From contig JAUQPL010000001.1 of the NCBI GenBank assembly GCA_030550395.1, positions 379,795 through 443,794 on the forward strand: a stretch of DNA of 64,000 nucleotides, in the 5' to 3' direction. Origin of the DNA: Bacteroidota bacterium (GTDB taxonomy: Bacteria > Bacteroidota > Ignavibacteria > Kapaibacteriales > HRBIN21). Within the stretch, counting starts at the first letter, position 1. Each line of letters begins with the position of its first letter. The notes beneath the pieces were generated by a model. It was not told where the DNA came from. It saw nothing but the letters and a program-made list of their open reading frames with translations, and did no database searches. This document shows positions 15,711 through 38,826 of the stretch, piece after piece. A program made the translations under genes and the position numbers.

Positions 15711-17900
15711 ATGGCGCGGGGTGGTGGTCCGGGGAAAGTTTACTTCGTGCTGTACTTAGCCGTCGTCCTGGAATTGCTCCTCATTATCGTTGAGCGCGAC
15801 GAAGCAGAGGAGCACCTACTGCAAAAGCAGAAGGAGTCCATGCGGATTGTGCAAAGCATCCTCTCCCAGCTCCAAATCGGTACTGGTACCGAAGGCATTG
15901 CCACACGTCCGAAGGATGAAATCACCCTGACAGAGGGCTTTATGCAAACGACCGGCGGTATCCAAATCCGCCAAGATCGCTACTACGAAGTTGAAGTTGG
16001 TGTCACCGATGTCTCCGGAATTACCATCTCCGAGGACCTCGAACCGGCAGAAGTCGAAAACCGACGCCGGAATCTGATTCGGCTGGCCAACGTGCAGGAG
16101 CTGGATTACCAGATTTTCTACCATCCGAGCCCCAATCCCGAACCTCCCCCCTTCCCGCCCGATGACTCTTTGCGCCGCATACGCTGGGAGAGCTTGGCAG
16201 AAGGCTCCTCGATCGGCCCTGACATTGAAGGCTCGCCATGGCGCCTGGTAGCAATGCGGCGTCTGGAACTGGACTTGGCTAGAACCCAGGACTACCAGAA
16301 TCCCATTTACAAACCGTACACCATCACCATCGGCGACCTCAAGCGCTTTGCTCCTCCCGACGCAGCGGCCAAGGACAGCATCTTCTGGTACGACCACAAA
16401 CGTACCCAGGACCGAGCTCAGCAGAACGGGGGGAGGATCAAAAAACGAGTCTTCGCTATCCGCTTCCAACCACCGGCCCAACCTGGCTGGTATAAGCTGC
16501 GATTTGCCTCCCGCACAAACCGCATTCTGGGCATCCAAGGCGACAAACCTATAGAGCTTACAGGAGAGGAAACAGTCAACATCGGTACTGTCCAAATCAA
16601 AGTCAAGGACCTCCAGCTTGTCAAGCGGGAGTTAGAGTACGAACTGGATGCCTATAATCCGCCCTTAGCCGATGATCTCATCAATGCTCGCTTGGACGCG
16701 GAGGAGTTTCTCAACCGCCTCCAAGCCTCCATGGACTATGCCCGGCAAGAGTATCCGGAGAAAGCTTCTGAAATCGTCGGGAAGCTGGAGCTCTATGGTT
16801 ATATCGCCCGTCTCCTAGCTCCTGGGCAGTCTGCAGGCTTTGAACAGAATCGCTCAAGCATTGCCATTGACATTCGCGTCATTAAGCCGGCTGTTCCACC
16901 TCCAGCCGACCCGAAGGTCTTCTTAGCCCAGGAGGATTTCTACTCTTTCGACAAAGCCCAACGCACCGTTATTCCGTTTACTGCAGGTCCTATTACCCCT
17001 GGAGGCAAACTTCCAACCGTTACTATTCAGCCGCCCCTTTCTTTCCGTTTGGTGGACATTGGCCCCGAATTAGTCGCTGGTACAACCCAAGCTGGAGCGG
17101 CAACGAACCACAAGTTTGAAATCCAAATCAACGAACCTATTAGTTCCGGCGAGTATACCGTCCGGATTTCCCACACAAACATCGCCGGGAAACAGGCTAC
17201 TTCCGAGGCTCGCTTGATTGTCTTCCCCAGCCGCTTGGATAATGCTCAGGACATTGACGCATTACTTCAGAACAGTCTCTTCTATGGCTACACTTTCCAA
17301 ATCGTGGCTCAACCCAGCTCCGGTGGCAAAATCCCTGCTGCCCAATTCCGGACGGCTATTATCCTGGGCGCCGATCAACAGCCTGTCGTCTCAGGATTAC
17401 AGGCGGAGCGGGAAATCCCTGCCTCCGTCTCCTCGGTTGCCGTCCGCGTTGGGTGGCAAAATCCCTACACGGGAGAGCTCGTCCCGCTGTATGAAGGAAT
17501 AGGAACGCCCCAACAACGAGCTCCCCGGATAGCTGTTGGGGACATCAAGATTGACCCCACCATTGACCCCCGTAATCCAGAGCTCCTCATTACAGGCATT
17601 ACTATCCTCCCTCCGTTTGTCGACGTTCAACGTCCTGCTACGCCCGACGACATCAAAGACGTACGCGTCCAAATCACCCGAGCTGATATCCCGAATTATA
17701 AGGCAAGTGCCTCTATTCAGCGGAGCGGAGCCACTACATACGAGGTCCGTATCCGCTTAGACGGTCCTCTCCCAGTTCGACGTGGGCGGCTGGATGGAAC
17801 GGTTTCGCTCCTCATTACAGCAAAGGTTCGCAATCCCATTAACGGCGCAGAATCCCGTGAGGGGCGGGCAGCAATACCCAACATTCCGATTACCTACTAA
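15711..17900 (+). CDS. Single-pass, periplasmically exposed protein; PorM/GldM-like architecture (tentative)
   Basis: GKVYFVLYLAVVLELLLIIVERDEAEEHLLQKQKE: one TM then a helical segment, followed by about 650 aa of beta-rich Ig-like repeats. Family assignment is an inference. Confidence 0.6.
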   Translation: MARGGGPGKVYFVLYLAVVLELLLIIVERDEAEEHLLQKQKESMRIVQSILSQLQIGTGTEGIATRPKDEITLTEGFMQTTGGIQIRQDRYYEVEVGVTDVSGITISEDLEPAEVENRRRNLIRLANVQELDYQIFYHPSPNPEPPPFPPDDSLRRIRWESLAEGSSIGPDIEGSPWRLVAMRRLELDLARTQDYQNPIYKPYTITIGDLKRFAPPDAAAKDSIFWYDHKRTQDRAQQNGGRIKKRVFAIRFQPPAQPGWYKLRFASRTNRILGIQGDKPIELTGEETVNIGTVQIKVKDLQLVKRELEYELDAYNPPLADDLINARLDAEEFLNRLQASMDYARQEYPEKASEIVGKLELYGYIARLLAPGQSAGFEQNRSSIAIDIRVIKPAVPPPADPKVFLAQEDFYSFDKAQRTVIPFTAGPITPGGKLPTVTIQPPLSFRLVDIGPELVAGTTQAGAATNHKFEIQINEPISSGEYTVRISHTNIAGKQATSEARLIVFPSRLDNAQDIDALLQNSLFYGYTFQIVAQPSSGGKIPAAQFRTAIILGADQQPVVSGLQAEREIPASVSSVAVRVGWQNPYTGELVPLYEGIGTPQQRAPRIAVGDIKIDPTIDPRNPELLITGITILPPFVDVQRPATPDDIKDVRVQITRADIPNYKASASIQRSGATTYEVRIRLDGPLPVRRGRLDGTVSLLITAKVRNPINGAESREGRAAIPNIPITY

Positions 17901-17901
17901 C

Positions 17902-19590
17902 ATGTGGCACAGAGTGCTCAAGACCATGCAGTGGACTCCTCAACAGAGGCTCTTCCTCGTTAGCGGGCTCTTTGCTCTACTGTGGTGCAGTATAGCAGCG
18001 TATGCCCAGGATGCAGAAATCCGAGCGATCTTGCGAAAGTTCAAAAACTACCGCTACAGTACTATCTCCATCTTCCGTCTGGAAGGGCAAACCTTTGCCG
18101 ACATTCAGGAGCTCCTCAATCCAATGCCGAAAGCCCCAGAGGTGGTGGCAAGCCTCCAGTCTGCTAACCCTGCCCTCTACCAGCAAATCCAGGACCGCGT
18201 AACGCTAGAAGGGTGTGCTGCCGACATTCAGGAAGTTCTCCGCAAACTTCGGGAGGAAGACGGTGTACCCCCTGGTATTGTCAATCGCGCTGAAACGATA
18301 GAGGCTGTCAAATACGCCGTCCAAGTCATGCAGAATAACTGTAACGCCTTCAAAAATGCCTTTGTCATAACCAGCCGTTATCGTCCAGGAGCCCCCTTTA
18401 GCATTATCGCCCTCGTCAAGACGCGCGACCGTTCACGAACTATTGCCCGAGACCTCCGGAGTGTCCAAGACGCTGACATCCTCCTTTTCACTGAACTCCG
18501 CCGCATCGCTGCTCCGGCCAGTTCCCCCTCCTCTACCCTCTATGACTATTTGGCAAACGCCATTATTCAAGGTGCCGTGGAAAACGTCACCTTAGAAGCC
18601 CAGGGCATTGGCGATGAGGAAACAGAATTTGCCCCTCCCACATTTGGCAATGCAGAACTGGTATCGGAAGACGATGTGCAAACCTACCTCCGCATCTCCG
18701 AAGGACAGCCTTCTAACTATCCTCATCCCAGGGAGCTGGCCGTAAGCTTCCCCGACCTCATCCGGTATACCTACTACACCATCTCCTCCGAGGCAGAAGC
18801 GGAAGCAGAGGTTACCGAGCAAGAGGAACGCACCTACAACCGCTTCCTTCCACAACTGGGAATAGAATTACGCTACGGTTTGGAGGAGCTCAACTATCCC
18901 TCCGTATGGTCGCAGCGACTTACGCTCAACGCTCTGTGGAGCAGCGCCCGATTAGGAGTAATTCTCCCCACGAAAGGCTGGGGCACACTTTCCTCACGCC
19001 TAGGCGCTCAACCCCGGCTGACAATTGCAGGTTGGGGACTCCACGGAACGGTTGACTTTCCCATTAAGCTCATCCACAATGGTGGGGTCTTCCATGCCTC
19101 CGCCTCCTATGTCTTTGGCGATGCCAAACGTTCCGCTCATCCTCATTGGCATCCTCAGCTGAAACAATGGACGGATTTCCTCATCCGCTACCATCTCCAG
19201 TTGCATTACTCCTTCGCTATTGCGGTGGACAAAAACTATTTCTTCCGCTTCCTTCTGGGCGGAACCCTCTACGAGAGCGAAACCTGGGGTGACCAGACCG
19301 ATACAACCACAAATCAGAGTCCCCGCTTTGTGCGCAAATCCAGGGAAACCATTGGTGGCATCAGCGGAGGAGTTCAGTTCATGGCCACTGGCCTCCAAAC
19401 CCCATATGGCTTCGGACTCCAGTATTTTGACGACACGATTCTGGCAACGGCATGGTTGCAAATCCCCATCACTCGTGGCTTGCTTGTCCGCTTTGACGGA
19501 CGACTCTTTACCTGCTTGCTGCGAGACCCGCGGCTTTGGGAACAACAGACCCTCTTCCTCCCCTCCGTACGCTTGATGTTGAACTTCTAG
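17902..19590 (+). CDS. Hypothetical outer-membrane protein (soluble N-domain plus C-terminal beta-barrel)
   Basis: Signal peptide (FLVSGLFALLWCSIAAYAQD); alternating beta-strand pattern in the C-terminal half; terminal SVRLMLNF. Confidence 0.65.
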   Translation: MWHRVLKTMQWTPQQRLFLVSGLFALLWCSIAAYAQDAEIRAILRKFKNYRYSTISIFRLEGQTFADIQELLNPMPKAPEVVASLQSANPALYQQIQDRVTLEGCAADIQEVLRKLREEDGVPPGIVNRAETIEAVKYAVQVMQNNCNAFKNAFVITSRYRPGAPFSIIALVKTRDRSRTIARDLRSVQDADILLFTELRRIAAPASSPSSTLYDYLANAIIQGAVENVTLEAQGIGDEETEFAPPTFGNAELVSEDDVQTYLRISEGQPSNYPHPRELAVSFPDLIRYTYYTISSEAEAEAEVTEQEERTYNRFLPQLGIELRYGLEELNYPSVWSQRLTLNALWSSARLGVILPTKGWGTLSSRLGAQPRLTIAGWGLHGTVDFPIKLIHNGGVFHASASYVFGDAKRSAHPHWHPQLKQWTDFLIRYHLQLHYSFAIAVDKNYFFRFLLGGTLYESETWGDQTDTTTNQSPRFVRKSRETIGGISGGVQFMATGLQTPYGFGLQYFDDTILATAWLQIPITRGLLVRFDGRLFTCLLRDPRLWEQQTLFLPSVRLMLNF

Positions 19591-19606: not shown

Positions 19607-20998
19607 ATGGGACGCTGGATTGCTGCATTGGCTGCTGCGGCCCTCCTCTGGGCACAGCAACAGCCTTACATCACTGAACCCGATGCCGACTCTGTCATCA
19701 CAGCCCTCAAAACCATCGATCCCAACATCCTGAAGTACTTTCCCCGCTGGCGTATCTGCGAGCCTAATCTGATGATCCAGCTGCACCAGACCTTCCTACT
19801 GCTTGGCTATCCCGAGGAAAAGTTGGATATGCAGCAGATCACTGTGACTGCGGCTCCCACACGTCGGCAGGGCTCCGAATACGACATCCTGCTCATTGAG
19901 TGCGGCCACGCCAAGATGACAGCCTCAGAAATTGAGGCCAATATTCGCGGACTAGCAACCCTACTGGCAGATCCCCAACGCCGATACTGTTACACGGAGA
20001 TTCCCCCTACCGTACCCCCAACACCGGCACAAGCCGAAATCATCATCAACTTTACCATGCCCACTCACGTAGGACATGCCATCTCGGTTTCTCTCTTCGA
20101 ACAGAGTCTCAAACTTGGACAAACCGGCTTTTGGCTGCGAGCAACTATCGGTGCCGATCCCATTGGATACCCATTCTGGTCAGGGGGCATTGCACGGGTC
20201 CTGTTACAACGTCCCCTTGTCCGAAACACAGATGAGCAGACCCGAAGAGGCATCCCCCATTTGCTGGACGTCCAGCTCGGTGGTGGTTATCGCGTCACTG
20301 GAGGTTTGGACCCGAACTTCCTAAGTGGGATTATCCCCGTACGCAAGCTCAACCTTGCCCCTGGAGGACAATTCGTCGCTGGGGCGGACTTTTACTTCCC
20401 CTTCCATCCTCAAGCTGGAACCCATCTGTATGTAGAACTCCCTTTCAAAGGGATTGACCCCTCCAGCTCCATCAATCCTGCTACATATGCCATCCTTCCG
20501 TTAGATCCTGCCCGTGATCCCCTCCGGAGCTCTGATCCCGGGCTTTCTATTGACCCAGACTATGTCGTCCCCCTGCTCCGCTCTATGGGACAATGGGGAT
20601 TCTTCTACAACTGGTGGTCCGATCCCGAGCGCCCCATCCACCTCCTCCGCCTAGATGTAGGCATCAGCTACGCGGAAATCACAGAAGCAGCCCTCTTACG
20701 TCGGGCCGACAGCACAGTGTCCTTGGTCCACCAGGGAATAGAAGGGTTGCACACGTATAAACCTCGGGAGCTTGGCGATTGGCTCTACTTACGGTTGGAG
20801 TATCGGAACCAGAGTGGTTTTCCCTTTGGGATAGCGTTGCAATATTCCAATCAAATCCTTCTCGGGCGCGCTTATGTCCCCATCATCGGGCGCTGGCTAT
20901 ACGTGGAAGCGAAATACGCTACCCCTCTCCGCCCTGTTCGTCCCTTTGAAACCCGAAACTTCTTCATTCTCTCGCCTCTGCTTCGGATTACCCTCTGA
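19607..20998 (+). CDS. Hypothetical outer-membrane beta-barrel protein
   Basis: Signal peptide MGRWIAALAAAALLWAQQ; amphipathic strands; C-terminal FILSPLLRITL. Confidence 0.6.
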   Translation: MGRWIAALAAAALLWAQQQPYITEPDADSVITALKTIDPNILKYFPRWRICEPNLMIQLHQTFLLLGYPEEKLDMQQITVTAAPTRRQGSEYDILLIECGHAKMTASEIEANIRGLATLLADPQRRYCYTEIPPTVPPTPAQAEIIINFTMPTHVGHAISVSLFEQSLKLGQTGFWLRATIGADPIGYPFWSGGIARVLLQRPLVRNTDEQTRRGIPHLLDVQLGGGYRVTGGLDPNFLSGIIPVRKLNLAPGGQFVAGADFYFPFHPQAGTHLYVELPFKGIDPSSSINPATYAILPLDPARDPLRSSDPGLSIDPDYVVPLLRSMGQWGFFYNWWSDPERPIHLLRLDVGISYAEITEAALLRRADSTVSLVHQGIEGLHTYKPRELGDWLYLRLEYRNQSGFPFGIALQYSNQILLGRAYVPIIGRWLYVEAKYATPLRPVRPFETRNFFILSPLLRITL

Positions 20999-21050
20999 TC
21001 CTTCTGCCAACACTCCCCGACGGGACAACTCTGACTACAAAGATACACCA

Positions 21051-22376
21051 ATGCCTCGGAGATCCCTGCCACTGCACGCTGTAGTGACCATTTTCCTTTG
21101 TGGCAGCACCTTTTACTACGAACTCTCTTCTCAAACCGATACCTCTCAGCTCCAGCGCCGGCTTATCGAGCAAGCCCGAATACAAACCCGGCAGGGAACG
21201 CTCCAACTACGCCTCCACAACGTGGACATTACGCGTTTTCCCGATATCAGCCTCATCGTCGAAGTTCTCGGAGACGGTCCCGATACGCTGTATGCGGAGG
21301 ACTTCACCGTGGTCGAAAACGACCGAACATATCCCGTACTGTCGGTCAGCCGTCTCTCGCCCCATCGGCGGGTTCCCGTAGACTTCGTATTCGCCATAGA
21401 TGTCACCGGGACTATGCAACCGTATATCAACCAGGTCCGGGATAATTTAGAACACTTTACCCGAACTCTCCTTCTCCGTGGCATTGACTACCGTTTAGGG
21501 CTGGTGCTTTTTTCCGACGTCATTGAACGGAGTTATCCCTTCACTGAAGATGTTCATGAATTCCTCCGCTGGATTTCCCGCATCTGGGCAAGCGGAGGCA
21601 TGGACGAAAAGGAAAACGCCCTGGAAGCTATAGCTGAAGCAGCACGATATCCCTTCCGACCCGCTGCTAATCGCGTCATTATCCTCATCACCGATGCCCC
21701 CTACCATCAGAAGGGTGAGAAAGGACACGGACGAACAGAGTTCACAACGCAAAGCATTATTGAGTATCTCCGCGACCGTCAAGTCCGGCTCTTCTGCATC
21801 ACCCGACCCGAGCTCAAGGAATACAAACACATTGCTGAGGCAACCCGCGGCAGCGTCTACGACATCCAGCTTCCTTTCTCCCGTATCCTGGAGCAATACG
21901 CAGCCGAACTCACCAATCTCTGGGTCCTGACGTACCGCACGGGCGAGGAGATTCCCCAGGATTCCGTCCAAGTGGCGATTGTCGATCGCCAGAAGCGGCG
22001 GTTGGTTTACCAGACCATCCCTATCGTCGCCATTGGACGCAAGTTCATTTTGGAACACCTCCTCTTTGCAACCAATGAAGCTACGCTTCCTGACAGTATC
22101 CCGGAACTGGACCTTATCGCTCGTTTCCTTCAACGCCGCCCCGAGGTAGTCATCCGCATTGAAGGACACACAGATAACCGCGGCACCCCTGCTTACAATT
22201 ACCGCCTCTCTCGGCGGCGCTCGGAAAACGTCCGACAATACCTGCTTCGCCGTGGGGTACCGGAACGCCAACTTCAAATTGCTGCCTTCGGTGCCAGTCG
22301 TCCTATCGCAGATAACGAAACTGACTTTGGTCGGAGTTTGAATCGTCGTGTAGAAATCGTCATCGTTCGGAAATAA
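21051..22376 (+). CDS. Secreted VWA-domain protein with C-terminal OmpA-family peptidoglycan-binding domain
   Basis: VDFVFAIDVTGTM (MIDAS) and VIILITDAP in the VWA region; VVIRIEGHTDNRGTPAYNYRLSRRRSENVRQYLLRRGVPERQLQIAAFGASRPIADN OmpA signature. ORF track start 20874 is too early. Confidence 0.85.
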   Translation: MPRRSLPLHAVVTIFLCGSTFYYELSSQTDTSQLQRRLIEQARIQTRQGTLQLRLHNVDITRFPDISLIVEVLGDGPDTLYAEDFTVVENDRTYPVLSVSRLSPHRRVPVDFVFAIDVTGTMQPYINQVRDNLEHFTRTLLLRGIDYRLGLVLFSDVIERSYPFTEDVHEFLRWISRIWASGGMDEKENALEAIAEAARYPFRPAANRVIILITDAPYHQKGEKGHGRTEFTTQSIIEYLRDRQVRLFCITRPELKEYKHIAEATRGSVYDIQLPFSRILEQYAAELTNLWVLTYRTGEEIPQDSVQVAIVDRQKRRLVYQTIPIVAIGRKFILEHLLFATNEATLPDSIPELDLIARFLQRRPEVVIRIEGHTDNRGTPAYNYRLSRRRSENVRQYLLRRGVPERQLQIAAFGASRPIADNETDFGRSLNRRVEIVIVRK

Positions 22377-31753: not shown

Positions 31754-34700
31754 TTAGGGCACAATTGTAACCGTTCCCGCAATGCCGCCCACAGTCGGGC
31801 TCAAACGCGGCAGCCACAGGCGCCAGAAGTAGACTCCTGGACTCACAGGTACCCCCTCTCGCGTATGCCCCCGCCAATCCCACCGATTCTGCCCAACAGT
31901 AACCGGGAATTCCTCAGCATAGAGCCGCTGCCCGAGCGATGAGAAGATTTCCACACGGGCAAGCTCCTGGATGGTATAGCCGTCATAGGCAAATTCCAGA
32001 CTCATTCCTCCCGAAGTTGGGTTGGGATACTGCCGGAGTAGACGGAGTGCAAGACCATCGGTGACCGTAAGCTCCAACTGCAATGTATCCCGTAATCCAG
32101 CGGCGTCTTCCCCCGTTGCCCAGACAATAACCCTGCCCAGGGGAAGTCGGGATGGCTGACAGAAGAGAGCCGACCGTACCCCTGGCTGACGGAGTACCGC
32201 TGGCAGGGCATCCAACTCCGTGCTCGGATAAACCCGATACTGCACCGCTGTGGTACTATCCATCAGCCGTCCCTCAATCCACAGCCGTAGGACGGGTACC
32301 CTCACCGGGCCTGATGAAGCGTCAGAGAGCAATAGCCAAAGTTCTGGCTGCCGCGAAATCGTCATACCAGAGCGTAAGGGAACCAGCCGTCCTCCCTCAT
32401 GCCACCATAGTTGGAGGGTCGGAGGTAGCGTATCAACGGTCAGTTGATACGGCATTTCAGCGGCATTATTGAAAGAGTACAACTCCCCAGCCGCTCTACC
32501 ACGGGCCCAGAGCATTCCTTGGATAGCCCAAGTGCTGGTAGACAATGGCAGGGCAAGAAGAGTGTCCCCCTCCGGACCGAGGGGCGAAGGGAGAGCCCAC
32601 ATCCCTTGCTCTTCTTCCATTACCTCCGACCGCACTCCCACGCGGAGTCCAACACCATGCAAACCCGCCCGGAGGGAACGGTTTACCACAGAAACATTCA
32701 CCGTTAGCGTATCGCCACTCATCACCGGCATTCTTGATACCGATACCCACCGCAACGCCATTTCCCCTTGTGGCTCAAATGTGTAGAGAATATGCCGAAG
32801 CTCCGGTGGCTCTCCCCCTTCAGTCCCGTATAGCGCCTCCAGCTGCAACTGCGCATAGGCATATTGCTCGCCCGAGAGGTCAATGACAGTATCCCCGCGA
32901 GAATCCCACACGACGTCCCACCCCGATTCCTCAAGACTGCGTCGCCCATAGACCGTGACAACCCATTGCCGTGGTGCCCGAAGCTCTAAGATGAATTTCC
33001 CCAAACGCCGTGACGGTCCAATCCACGGGGTAAGGAGGCGGCCCTGAGGCATGGAATGGACAAGCTTAGCTTGCACTCTAAGGCTATCACCCCGTCGGAA
33101 GTTCTCCAAAACTTTCTCTCCACCACGCTGGGCAACGAAGGCAAATGCTATGCCTGACCGCACCAAAGAATCTACCTGAGAGGCATTGTAGAACCGCCGT
33201 AGAAGGGAACGCAACGTGTCCAATTGTTCGCTTGTAAAGCGCCAGAGCCCATCGCCGGAGAGCACCCATATCAAGTACTGCCCCACGCGGACGGAGTCCC
33301 GAACCAAGCTTAAAAAGTACCTGACCTCCTCCACCTGCCCTGTCCTACCGGTTCGGTAGAAAAAGGTCCGCGGTGGTTCCTCACCCACCGAGACAATTGC
33401 TGCTCCAATCCCGGCCTCCTGCTCGGCCTCCAGCAATGGTTGTCCGTCTATCTGAATTACTGCGCGGCTCCGAACCGGGTCTGACACAAGCTCCACCGAG
33501 CGCTGCCATTGACGGATTCGGACAACAAAGGCTCCATCTTCCGCTCGGACAACCTCCATATCACGCAGTCCATCGGCAGCAAACTCTACGCTATCTTTTT
33601 GCTGCCACTGAACCCATCGCCGTATTGGCGTGGTATCAGCCCAGAAAGGAACTTCCAGCCACTGCGTCCAGAGGGCATCACCGATGCGCACTGCCCGAAT
33701 ACGGAGGCGATAGCTTTCCCCGGGCCGCAATATCGCTCCCGCTGGCTGCCAGTCCACCGCCTCTTCAAAGAAACGCCACTCTGAATCCGCCGAAACCGCT
33801 ATCCGCTCGTCTCCTCTCCAGAGCTCCGCCTCATACCGGAATGAGTCCGCCGCTCCCAAGGGATTCAGAACCCGAAAACGAGGACGCCCCGCTTGCACAT
33901 GCCAGAACGGAAGCGGCTCCAGCGGTAGGAGCCCCCGGGAACGGACTAAGTAGCTAAGGCGGACTTCATTGTTATCCCACGCCTGCTCCTCTATGGCGCT
34001 ATCGGGATTGAGCTGGAGCGTGAGCCGGTGGAATCCAACCCCTCGCCATCTTGGAGGAAGAAGGGTATCCCATGACGAACTCACCCGCACGGGGTCTCCC
34101 AGCAGCCAAAGTGTATCAGGTCCTCCTTCCCCATCATGGAGAATCCGCATCCGCCACAGACCCTGCGGCACTACCCCTGCATTCCCTACGACAACCCGTA
34201 CTCTGACCAAATCCCCCTCTACGAACTCTGCTCTTGGAACCCTATCCCCACGATGGACTAGCGGAGTAGGTGATACGAACAGTAACTCTGGCACCGTATC
34301 CACCGGGAAAGTCAGCAAGGGATCGCCCAACAAGGTGTGCTGTAAAATTGTCGCCCGATAAATATCATTGGTGGCAAAGGGCATTAAGGGAAGCCGTGCT
34401 GCAACATAGAGTGGACCCAACATCCGTACTTTCCGCTCCACTAAGGTCTGAAACAGATAGTGCTGCACCGTGCGCTCAACGATGTCTACCCCAATACCCG
34501 ACATCCCGAGCGCCGCTACCATGCCCCGTTGAGAGGAAACCACATATTGCTCATTGAACGAGCGGGTATACGGAACAGCGAAATTCCCCATAGAACACGA
34601 CAATGTCATGAGGAGTCCTTGCCGTTGGGCATTGGTCAGACGATTCGGTTCCCAACCTTGAACCTCCATGTTGGCTTCCGCTCCATGCCCGAAGTAGATC

Positions 34701-37447
34701 GTGAGCCCTACTCCCTCCTCCAGCCTCTGCCGTATGAGCGGACCATAACGGCTACTGGCTGGTTCGGGAGTTTCCTTAATAACAACATAGGGCTGCATAC
34801 CCAACACATCCGTCATCCAGGTGTAGTACGTGTCGCTTGTGTTTGAAAACCCATAGCCGAAGATGAGGAGTGCATGTTTACGCCACAATGCCGTCGGCGG
34901 TGCAGCTTCCCACGCTGCTATCTTCTCCAACACAGCTACAGCTTCGGAAGTATCCGCCGCTGGGATCCGACCGACAAAAAGCTCCGGAAGCCAATCCTCG
35001 CCTTCCAGCAAACCATACCAGTAATCGCTCGGTGGCACCCCGTAGGCAGGGACCAGATTGGGCTTGGGAAAGCCGAGAATACCTCGGGCATCCCAATTAG
35101 CAGAGCCGAACAATACAACTGCCTGGGGAGCCGGAGGTTGCCACCGAGCATATGCATACCGCAGGAAGTCTTTAATCGCCTGTGGTGTCAGACGACCGTA
35201 ACCGAACACCGTAGCGATATCCTGGACAGAGATAAGGCGAACCCGAACCCCACGCTTCTGTTCCCGCTCGGTGGCCCAACGCTGCGCCACAGACCAAAGA
35301 CGCGGATGGGCAATAACGACAACATCAGCCTGAGGCTTAGGCTGTGCCAATGAGCTGGGCTCTATGCGCTGTAGTGATGCTCTCTCCCACCGAATCTCGT
35401 CCTCTACCCACAGATGCGCCGTATCTCCAGGAGCTAACGCTAAAGCCACTTGGTAAGAATTCCCCGCAATAGGCAGACTCGCCAACAGATTTGCCCATTG
35501 CCCAGGTGCAGCTACTCGCTCTACTTTCGCTGAGGTGTCGCTTCGGCGCAGCGTCCATACCCACGCCCACCCCTCAGCTGCCCGGTCTGTTTGCTGTAAT
35601 CCCCACGAGCGCAAAAGCGCAAGAACCTCCGGAGATGGAGCCTCCACACTAACCCAGACAACCGGTGCTTCCGGAGCTATCTGCTGCAGTACTGATCGGA
35701 GTTCGGACGCATTCGCTGGCAACCACACCTGACCGATCTCAAATCGAGGAGGCTGCCACCAGAGAAGCAATATACCTGCTTCCCTCCGGTGGACAATTAG
35801 ATGATCACCGAGAAACACTTCAACCCATGGGGAACTCCCCGCACGCGCAGCAACGCGGAGCGCTTGCTCCTGCTCTCCCCGCAAGAATGCGATTCGCCCC
35901 CGCAACGTGTCAATAGCAGCGATGGTGGGCGAAGCAAAGCCATGCAGAACCAATTGCCCCCGCCTACTGCCGGCTGCTACAACTCCCTGCCACTTCCCTT
36001 CCACTGCGAACGGCTGCGGCCTCAAGACGAACTCAATTGCATCAATCCCTTGCTCGGCCACACCGCAAACGGCTGCTGTATCTACTGCAATCGCCTTCAC
36101 TCTCCATCGATTCCAGCCGGCAGACCATTGTCCCGGCTCTATGACTCCCTGCCATTCTAACGGTCCCCAGCCCTCACGGGAGAGCATCCCCAGCGTGTCG
36201 CCATTGACCAGACACCACCAACGGTGCTCCGGCGCACATGAAGGGATACTGTTCAGTGCAAAACCCGTAATACGAACTCTTACCGTGTCTAAAGCTGGCA
36301 AAAGCAACGAGTCACTCCACCCTCCCTCTGACGCGCGTACGTGCGCCCAATACCATCCCTCGCCTGGGGCTGCTTCTGTCCAATTCCGGAAAAAGCCTTC
36401 GTTAGCTCCGGAGACATATACTTTGTCCTGCTCCCAGTGGAAGGTCGTGGGGAGAATCTCCACGTCCGGCTCCGTACCCTCCGCCTCAGAAACCGGGATA
36501 AAACGGACCGGCGTCCCGCTGTCTTGCAGGACGAGGAAGAAAGCCTCCTCAGGGACTTGGGTATCCCACCATGTTGTATCCCCGGCAGCTCGGCGCCCGA
36601 AGAAGAGCAGAGTATCGGTATCGTCCAACACACCATTGCGATCACGCAAATACAAAGGGACAGGGTGCCCCGACCATAGAAGTTGTAAATGCTGGGAGGG
36701 TCGCCCTCGCCACTCTGGCATTGCTTGGAGAATGTCCCGCAGAGGCACTACCGCAATCCCGTCCCGTTTGGTTCCCAGACGCAAGACCGGACGGTCAATA
36801 GGAAACGGCACCTCCTGCCCCATCCGTGTATTCCCCACACGACGGAAAGCGAGGGCATGCTCGGGATTCAACAGAAGGTGAGCAAAAGGTGCCTCCAGCA
36901 ATGCCCATGACATTACCACCTCATCCCGACGTATGGGTGCGGGATACCGTATCCTCAGAGACACCTCTTCCCACAGACGCAAACGCTTGTGCTCAGGAGT
37001 ATACTCCCATGGATTCAGTTCCAGCAAGGCAATCGGTATCCCTCGCCAGATACCGAGAAAACTCATCCGAACCCCTGGCATAAGCGTCCCTGCGCGATTT
37101 TGCGTATTCCCTGAGCCCAACACCCCTCCTACCGTAGCGATCTCCACTGAAGCCCATTCCCGGATGTTCTGAACCTCCCACTGAAAGTCCGGAAGAGAGT
37201 CCGCCGAGGGTACTGCCACAAGCCACAGCATACGTTCAACAGCCGGTGCCGAAGAGTCCGGACCCATCACCGCTGCCGGTTCACCGAGCTGAGCAACAAA
37301 GCACCTTCGAGGAACCTCCCGCACCGACGCCCGATGGAAAACCACGCGAAGCTCCACCCCATCATCCCCCACCCAGCGCTGGATAGCAGCCTCTGCCTCC
37401 GTTATCACGAAGTAGACACCAACAGCAGCGAACACAAGTCGGCGCAT
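31754..37447 (-). CDS. porU2: Type IX secretion C25 (gingipain-fold) sortase, PorU2-like, with C-terminal sorting domain
   Basis: ADVVVIAHPRLWSVAQRWATEREQKRGVRVRLISVQDI, VVLFGSANWD, ELFVGRIPA, catalytic YFGHGAEA (His) and LMTLSCSMGNF (Cys); C-terminal YPNPTSGGMSLEF..ARVEIFSSLGQRLY..PGVYFWRLW. Confidence 0.88.
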   Translation of the reverse strand: MRRLVFAAVGVYFVITEAEAAIQRWVGDDGVELRVVFHRASVREVPRRCFVAQLGEPAAVMGPDSSAPAVERMLWLVAVPSADSLPDFQWEVQNIREWASVEIATVGGVLGSGNTQNRAGTLMPGVRMSFLGIWRGIPIALLELNPWEYTPEHKRLRLWEEVSLRIRYPAPIRRDEVVMSWALLEAPFAHLLLNPEHALAFRRVGNTRMGQEVPFPIDRPVLRLGTKRDGIAVVPLRDILQAMPEWRGRPSQHLQLLWSGHPVPLYLRDRNGVLDDTDTLLFFGRRAAGDTTWWDTQVPEEAFFLVLQDSGTPVRFIPVSEAEGTEPDVEILPTTFHWEQDKVYVSGANEGFFRNWTEAAPGEGWYWAHVRASEGGWSDSLLLPALDTVRVRITGFALNSIPSCAPEHRWWCLVNGDTLGMLSREGWGPLEWQGVIEPGQWSAGWNRWRVKAIAVDTAAVCGVAEQGIDAIEFVLRPQPFAVEGKWQGVVAAGSRRGQLVLHGFASPTIAAIDTLRGRIAFLRGEQEQALRVAARAGSSPWVEVFLGDHLIVHRREAGILLLWWQPPRFEIGQVWLPANASELRSVLQQIAPEAPVVWVSVEAPSPEVLALLRSWGLQQTDRAAEGWAWVWTLRRSDTSAKVERVAAPGQWANLLASLPIAGNSYQVALALAPGDTAHLWVEDEIRWERASLQRIEPSSLAQPKPQADVVVIAHPRLWSVAQRWATEREQKRGVRVRLISVQDIATVFGYGRLTPQAIKDFLRYAYARWQPPAPQAVVLFGSANWDARGILGFPKPNLVPAYGVPPSDYWYGLLEGEDWLPELFVGRIPAADTSEAVAVLEKIAAWEAAPPTALWRKHALLIFGYGFSNTSDTYYTWMTDVLGMQPYVVIKETPEPASSRYGPLIRQRLEEGVGLTIYFGHGAEANMEVQGWEPNRLTNAQRQGLLMTLSCSMGNFAVPYTRSFNEQYVVSSQRGMVAALGMSGIGVDIVERTVQHYLFQTLVERKVRMLGPLYVAARLPLMPFATNDIYRATILQHTLLGDPLLTFPVDTVPELLFVSPTPLVHRGDRVPRAEFVEGDLVRVRVVVGNAGVVPQGLWRMRILHDGEGGPDTLWLLGDPVRVSSSWDTLLPPRWRGVGFHRLTLQLNPDSAIEEQAWDNNEVRLSYLVRSRGLLPLEPLPFWHVQAGRPRFRVLNPLGAADSFRYEAELWRGDERIAVSADSEWRFFEEAVDWQPAGAILRPGESYRLRIRAVRIGDALWTQWLEVPFWADTTPIRRWVQWQQKDSVEFAADGLRDMEVVRAEDGAFVVRIRQWQRSVELVSDPVRSRAVIQIDGQPLLEAEQEAGIGAAIVSVGEEPPRTFFYRTGRTGQVEEVRYFLSLVRDSVRVGQYLIWVLSGDGLWRFTSEQLDTLRSLLRRFYNASQVDSLVRSGIAFAFVAQRGGEKVLENFRRGDSLRVQAKLVHSMPQGRLLTPWIGPSRRLGKFILELRAPRQWVVTVYGRRSLEESGWDVVWDSRGDTVIDLSGEQYAYAQLQLEALYGTEGGEPPELRHILYTFEPQGEMALRWVSVSRMPVMSGDTLTVNVSVVNRSLRAGLHGVGLRVGVRSEVMEEEQGMWALPSPLGPEGDTLLALPLSTSTWAIQGMLWARGRAAGELYSFNNAAEMPYQLTVDTLPPTLQLWWHEGGRLVPLRSGMTISRQPELWLLLSDASSGPVRVPVLRLWIEGRLMDSTTAVQYRVYPSTELDALPAVLRQPGVRSALFCQPSRLPLGRVIVWATGEDAAGLRDTLQLELTVTDGLALRLLRQYPNPTSGGMSLEFAYDGYTIQELARVEIFSSLGQRLYAEEFPVTVGQNRWDWRGHTREGVPVSPGVYFWRLWLPRLSPTVGGIAGTVTIVP

Positions 37448-37503: not shown

Positions 37504-38826
37504 TTATCCCTTCCCCTCGTTCGCCCGGCTTTCAACCGCCTCCCGAATCCCGATGAGAATCTTTTGGCTGATCTCCTCTGCAACCATCCGCTTGACGCTA
37601 TCATCGGAGGTCAGGTACTCTGTAATCGCCTGCTCAACTCGCTTGCGAATTAACTCCGTCGTGCCACCTTCTAAAGCTTCCGCTAAGCGATGGATATCCC
37701 GAGACTGTTGCTCTAATGTCTCTAATTGCCCTCGAGCAGCATCTTCCATCTTCTTCAGCATCTTGTCGACCCGCTCCTCCGCCTCCGTATAGAAGAGCGT
37801 GAAAGCTAACAGTGTGAGCATGGAAAACTCCAGGAAGATTGCAAACAGAATCAGCGTCGGACGTGTAGCCGGGATGAACTTCAAGCCACGAATACCGATG
37901 GCAATAATCAACAATGCGGCACCACCATATGCCATACCGGTCACAGCATTGGAGTATTCCTCGGCAAAATGATGGCTCATGTACAAACGCAGTGCCTTGC
38001 CAATCCGGAAACGGTTCTGTCGCCATGCTTGAGCAGCACGAGCGTCCACAATTTCACGAGCGACAAAGTCAGAGAAATGCTCCCGAATCCGGTTATCCAA
38101 AATCTCCCGTCGGAAGCGCACTGGATCGGTTTCTGGCCCGAAAATGCCCTCAAACTTTAGCGGATACTTGGATGAGGCAGCCTGCTCTTCAGGCATTGTC
38201 CGCTCCCATACATGGGCGAAAACGCGGCGGATTGTTTCCCAATCCAGCACAGCAAGTTCCTCATCACGCATGACCAAGACGTTGATAACCTCTTCACTAA
38301 AGCCCGTCTGAATCCGCACTTTCGCCTTCGTTTCCTCAATTGCCTCCTCCACCTTTGCTGACATCAGTCCAACGGAAGGAGGCAGCAGGAGGGTCAAGAG
38401 AATGGCCACCAAAAAACCGATGTCCAACGATAGGATGACGAAACCAAAGGGTTCCAGGATAATCGGGTCTTCACCCAATTTCGGTGCCTTGACCAGCCAT
38501 TCTCCCGCCGCTTTCGTATAACCGTGCTCTTTCTCGTTGCGCGGCTTCCCGGTGAAGTCAAAAATGTACTCCCGGTTAATGTACTCTTTCCGCACCTCCA
38601 TACCCGCATACTTTTCCCCCTCAGCCGAAGGTGTTGCATAAACACCTCGGAAGTTGACCAATGCCTTCCCTGTGGTCGGTTTAAACTGCGAAACGAAGAA
38701 ATACTCTACAATCCGCGGCAGAAGAAGCGCATGGAACATCCATGTCGTTGCTACAAACAACGCCACGAAAAGCACATAGTGCAGTAACCCTGTATAGGTT
38801 TGTCGGGATTGCTTTTGGGGCACCAT
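37504..38826 (-). CDS. Four-TM membrane protein with C-terminal coiled coil; GldL-like TM hairpin (tentative)
   Basis: TM segments near aa 15-45, 125-150, and a tight pair AYGGAALLIIAIGIRGLKF / TLILFAIFLEFSMLTLLAFTLFY followed by EERVDKMLKKMEDAARGQLETLEQQSRDI; directly upstream of porU2 on the same strand. Confidence 0.6.
   Translation of the reverse strand: MVPQKQSRQTYTGLLHYVLFVALFVATTWMFHALLLPRIVEYFFVSQFKPTTGKALVNFRGVYATPSAEGEKYAGMEVRKEYINREYIFDFTGKPRNEKEHGYTKAAGEWLVKAPKLGEDPIILEPFGFVILSLDIGFLVAILLTLLLPPSVGLMSAKVEEAIEETKAKVRIQTGFSEEVINVLVMRDEELAVLDWETIRRVFAHVWERTMPEEQAASSKYPLKFEGIFGPETDPVRFRREILDNRIREHFSDFVAREIVDARAAQAWRQNRFRIGKALRLYMSHHFAEEYSNAVTGMAYGGAALLIIAIGIRGLKFIPATRPTLILFAIFLEFSMLTLLAFTLFYTEAEERVDKMLKKMEDAARGQLETLEQQSRDIHRLAEALEGGTTELIRKRVEQAITEYLTSDDSVKRMVAEEISQKILIGIREAVESRANEGKG

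Follow-up and report, generated by a model that had tools for sequence, protein, structure and literature searches.

The proteins designated here L and M, encoded in the 64,000-nucleotide stretch of DNA that was analysed (the window), are best read as the outer ring subunit and the inner shaft of a 5:2-type proton motor that is a remote relative of GldLM and most likely energises the T9SS, a reading to which we give a probability of roughly 0.55. It is supported by residue conservation, the topology obtained from hydropathy, gene linkage, the lack of canonical GldL, GldM and GldN and the presence of SprA and PorV. We infer that L and M form a complex, what its stoichiometry is, that it uses protons and that it is coupled to the T9SS. 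According to one report, T9SS genes may occur outside Bacteroidota proper (PMC11285876). In the open-access literature that we searched, we found no T9SS motor for these lineages and no account of an L-M type motor in them. With L and M, the power source of the T9SS in this class becomes testable, since they provide a concrete candidate residue (Glu333) and a partner (M).

The L protein and its family

The features of the window that bear on this reading are collected in Table 1. By hydropathy, L has four transmembrane (TM) helices, and two-TM relatives are known within the family. About 100 aa, probably periplasmic, separate TM1 from TM2, and TM2 and TM3 are about 145 aa apart; the region past TM4 is all-helical in a predicted structure of low confidence. 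The preliminary description of this gene, made from the sequence alone, had placed a glutamate in a second TM pair, preceded by an extra N-terminal pair and an insert of about 150 aa. Its open reading frame, frame, peptide and Glu codon were all recovered, the codon being that of residue 333 inside TM4. The second pair corresponds by hydropathy to TM3-TM4, and TM1 and TM2 were found in the same way, TM2 lying about 145 aa ahead of this hairpin.

Table 1. Features of the window related to the proposed L-M motor (positions within the window; TM, transmembrane helix)
Feature	Position	Strand	Basis
L, GldL-like membrane protein (type A), 440 aa	37504..38826	-	Open reading frame, translation, full-length homologues across the order
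L TM1, residues 13-31	38734..38790	-	Hydropathy
L TM2, residues 130-148	38383..38439	-	Hydropathy
L TM3, residues 294-312, Y300-x-G302-A303 motif, then invariant Arg313	37891..37947	-	Hydropathy, alignments
L TM4, residues 324-342, with Glu333	37801..37857	-	Hydropathy, alignment
Codon of invariant intramembrane Glu333 (GAG)	37828..37830	-	Sequence, alignments
L C-terminal helical region past the hairpin, residues 350-436	37519..37779	-	Sequence, low-confidence model
PorU2-like C25 peptidase, next gene, 56 bp downstream of L	31754..37447	-	PF01364 E 3e-58, NF052324 E 2e-46 (the latter below its curated cut-off)
M, about 730 aa, single TM and large presumably periplasmic part, proposed L partner	15711..17900	+	Order homologues, adjacency to L
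Glu21 codon; invariant residue in the M TM helix (residues 10-28)	15771..15773	+	Alignment, hydropathy
OMP1, presumed outer-membrane protein, probably starting after 17900	17782..19590	+	Conserved beside M, no Pfam family
OMP2, presumed outer-membrane protein	19607..20998	+	Conserved position, no Pfam family
Protein with VWA and OmpA C-terminal domains, encoded by the final gene of the M operon; start probably inside the open reading frame	20874..22376	+	PF00092, PF00691

When 298 genomes of the phylum were searched, full-length homologues of L, mostly at 45-59% identity, came up in every genome of its own order among the matches listed. Glu333, Arg313, Tyr300, Gly302 and Ala303 are all invariant in an alignment of 25 full-length homologues with identities of 32-59%. 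Across 19 diverse hairpins representing all types of the family, the only invariant columns are the Y, the G, the A and the TM Glu, while Arg313 is kept in all 25 full-length homologues and in 18 of the 19 hairpins. The preliminary description had proposed conservation of the TM Glu as a check on its reading; this residue is unchanged in 25/25 homologues and 19/19 hairpins, and its place in the hairpin is thus more than a chance occurrence.

The family as a whole was detected in 81 of 199 class genomes, including all own-order genomes listed, and takes at least four shapes. Type A, to which the window protein belongs, is about 440 aa long; type B has 325-400 aa and lies beside dnaK in two genomes; type C has about 260-290 aa and adjoins a single-TM protein of 470-500 aa; and the short forms, of 170-180 aa, consist of the hairpin and tail alone. 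At two type B loci (L038:6579-9648 and L039:6530-9554), the L-like gene directly follows dnaK and precedes a gene for a large ATPase-looking protein, and no M-like neighbour was seen there.

M as the partner of L and the gene neighbourhoods of both

M, a homologue of which was found in 60 of 61 order genomes, has a lysine (Lys9) just before its single TM helix. Both proteins carry conserved intramembrane carboxylates, Glu333 in L and Glu21 in M, as is the case in 5:2 proton-driven rotary motors. The two genes are 20 kb apart in the genome studied here. M adjoins L at another locus (L047) and in operons of the class, and in class-level genomes a short M directly follows a short L, after which come an exported protein of about 370 aa and presumed outer-membrane proteins. 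The type A and short M proteins are homologous (E 2e-11), and the outer-membrane proteins of the two kinds of operon are related (E 1e-5). Furthermore, L and M are both duplicated in one family (f6), with one of the pairs adjacent. Because of this adjacency elsewhere, the joint duplication and the homology of the operon proteins, L and M appear to belong to a single system, split in this genome. The link between L and a PorM-like protein at the position of M, suggested earlier, is supported by adjacency in other genomes and by the co-duplication in f6.

The neighbourhoods of the two genes are themselves conserved. L lies beside porU2, as had been described, on the same strand, and directly precedes it in 11 of 15 loci. 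M heads an operon of the order M-OMP1-OMP2-VWA/OmpA in 8/8 order loci. Neither M nor OMP1 nor OMP2 matched a Pfam or NCBIfam family above cut-off. OMP1 and OMP2 are paralogous (E 1e-9) and are both kept beside M across the order.

T9SS inventory of the class and the task of the L-M pair

SprA and PorV were each over the cut-off in all 24 genomes tested, a set composed of 22 genomes of the same class and two controls of another class; both proteins were therefore present in 22/22 own-class genomes, SprA of the present genome being encoded at C14:326198-332659. Canonical GldM and GldN were found in 0/22 own-class genomes and passed their cut-offs in the two control genomes alone. Of 119 phylum genomes, 28 had a GldL over the cut-off, and no sampled genome of this class was among them. 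A canonical gldL elsewhere was considered as an explanation of the T9SS and rejected, as none was over the cut-off in the present genome or in the own-class genomes sampled. In the present genome, where the preliminary description had named such a gene as evidence against its proposal, the best match to TIGR03513 (on C3) scored 13.5 bits versus a cut-off of 68.3. Since GldL, GldM and GldN exceeded their cut-offs in no sampled own-class genome, the canonical T9SS power unit is missing or unrecognisable in the class, and L-M is a candidate for its place.

All order genomes tested have both L and SprA. In the own-class genomes G004, G019, G039, G078, G093 and G173, SprA and PorV are present, and neither canonical GldL, GldM and GldN nor a detectable L was found. 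The lack of GldL alone cannot implicate L, because in several SprA-positive genomes of the class no L was detected either. These genomes, together with a second L-M pair in the present genome, also make the argument from absence weaker than that from gene linkage. The context of the genes suggests that L serves the T9SS, a role for which the second pair competes.

A role of L-M as a proton-driven 5:2-type motor for an envelope task other than the T9SS, such as Tol-Pal-like tethering of the outer membrane via the VWA-OmpA protein, is somewhat unlikely. Such a task would suit the conserved M operon, in which genes for two presumed outer-membrane proteins are joined by one for a VWA-OmpA protein of the peptidoglycan-binding type, as well as the SprA-positive genomes without L and the existence of two L-M pairs in one genome. 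However, the position of L directly before porU2 in most loci and the failure to find a canonical T9SS motor in the own-class genomes sampled argue for the T9SS.

The second pair is of type C (257 and 468 aa) and lies outside the window, at C14:361407-363579 (L180:8408-10580), beside an LptF/G-like permease. Elsewhere, type C pairs are found near a similar permease or near MltG-like genes. That this pair is the T9SS motor, with type A having a related task, we consider unlikely. Type C hairpins obtain the highest scores with a GldL HMM (15.3, 13.1 and 12.9), the sizes of the two proteins are nearer to those of GldL and GldM, and in one genome (G129:C104, L040:2235-10227) a type C pair shares a short contig with the best PorV-family gene of that genome, at a distance of about 5 kb, with an MltG-like gene between them. 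On the contrary, the linkage to porU2 and the operon with outer-membrane proteins belong to type A, and in families f9, f14 and f15, where SprA is present, the single L is of a type other than C.

Relation of L and M to known motors

L has no match above cut-off to any Pfam or NCBIfam family. The preliminary description had named assignment to another family as evidence against its proposal, and no such assignment was obtained. Weak Pfam matches such as Ntox27 and DUF6377 were discarded, as they were below the gathering scores and not common to the family. Membership of GldL could not be established, L being below the curated score, having other than two TM helices and lying outside a gldK/gldM/gldN operon. 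When its profile was compared with that of 22 canonical GldL sequences, L gave an E value of 0.057 over its full length; with hhalign, the hairpins of the L family gave 0.005 against GldL hairpins, G-A-A and the Glu falling in register, a score reached by one of 150 shuffles in which columns were shuffled within hydropathy classes.

A decoy control gave a clearer separation. With an HMM of the L hairpin, all 22 canonical GldL hairpins scored 4.4-14.7. The decoys, 146 unrelated TM hairpins of natural sequence, had their 95th percentile at 3.9 and peaked at 7.9, and MotA, ExbB and TolQ reached at most 2.3, under that percentile. Conversely, L hairpins reached 15.3 with the GldL HMM, versus a decoy 95th percentile of 4.2; one decoy (L080, 17.9), originally retrieved as a GldL match below threshold, is probably a divergent GldL. 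The p-values of rank tests on this control overstate the evidence, because each set is made up of related sequences. These comparisons are suggestive of remote homology between the L and GldL hairpins and are not proof of it.

For M, hhalign against GldM (TIGR03517) was not significant (E 0.07), and a poor structure model of M returned nothing from Foldseek at E <= 1e-3. A PDB sequence search with the L and M profiles yielded no relevant match, whereas the GldL profile does find the GldLM structures. AlphaFold2 models of single window proteins, made without an alignment, had pLDDT values of 50 and 40, too poor to judge the fold. The earlier suggestion of a divergent T9SS motor subunit is upheld in part: the partner link and the Glu speak for it, but identity with GldL is not demonstrated, given the absence of a model match, the different topology and the weak hairpin signal. 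It is quite improbable that L is an unrelated four-TM protein, such as a transporter or scaffold, with a hairpin that is GldL-like by convergence, for while the lack of an assigned family, the full-length E value and the shuffle that equalled the hairpin score would fit this, the decoy control, the invariant TM Glu and Arg and the two-TM short L forms that share an operon with M all oppose it.

Under the motor reading that we prefer, L would form a ring around a dimeric M shaft. Glu333 would be the proton-binding carboxylate, like Glu49 of GldL, which is strictly conserved and required for secretion and gliding (PMC8986121), and may pair with Arg313, an invariant residue that takes the place of Lys27 in GldL. 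Glu333 would take up and release protons beside the M helices; with protons passing in this way, the M dimer would turn or flex, and its periplasmic part would hand the force to the co-encoded outer-membrane proteins and then to SprA. With the helix boundaries given by hydropathy, and if L and M share the N-in orientation that GldL and GldM have, Glu333 and Glu21 would lie at similar depth, towards the periplasmic side, and we hypothesise a direct interaction between them. More tentatively, L and M may constitute an ion-driven ring-and-shaft motor family of their own, in which the ring subunit has four TM helices and both the ring helices (Glu333) and the shaft helices (Glu21) carry carboxylates at similar depth, and which powers the T9SS in place of GldLM and GldN in this class, a different one from that with canonical GldLM.

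Compared with GldL/PorL (TIGR03513), L shares the Y-x-G-A-A motif in the first helix of the hairpin, a basic residue 11 positions further along (Lys27 in GldL, conservatively replaced by Arg313 in L at the same spacing from G-A-A), the invariant Glu of the second helix (Glu49 and Glu333) and a cytoplasmic helical tail, and its family also includes short two-TM forms. In contrast, L is below every curated cut-off, has four TM helices instead of two, with a large loop after TM1 and the insert of about 145 aa before the hairpin, and lies outside a gldKLMN operon, its neighbours being porU2 and an aminotransferase. M resembles GldM/PorM in its single N-terminal TM helix, its large, presumably periplasmic part and, in a low-confidence model, the Ig-like strands at its C-terminus. 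However, it is longer (about 730 versus about 515 aa), has no sequence match to GldM/PorM and, unlike the GldM helices compared, carries an invariant Glu inside the TM helix.

MotA has four TM helices, with a cytoplasmic insertion ahead of the final two, and the partner subunits MotB, ExbD and TolR have an intramembrane acid. L is like MotA in having four TM helices with an insert before the last TM pair, but it has no sequence similarity to MotA, ExbB or TolQ and differs from them in that the ring subunit itself contains the TM Glu. L would show which features of GldL are essential, namely the Tyr/Gly/Ala hairpin, the basic residue and the Glu, and it bears on how the two-TM subunit relates to the MotA-like four-TM layout. 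L probably works like GldL and is most aptly classed with the ring-and-shaft proton motors, as a new and divergent variant of them.
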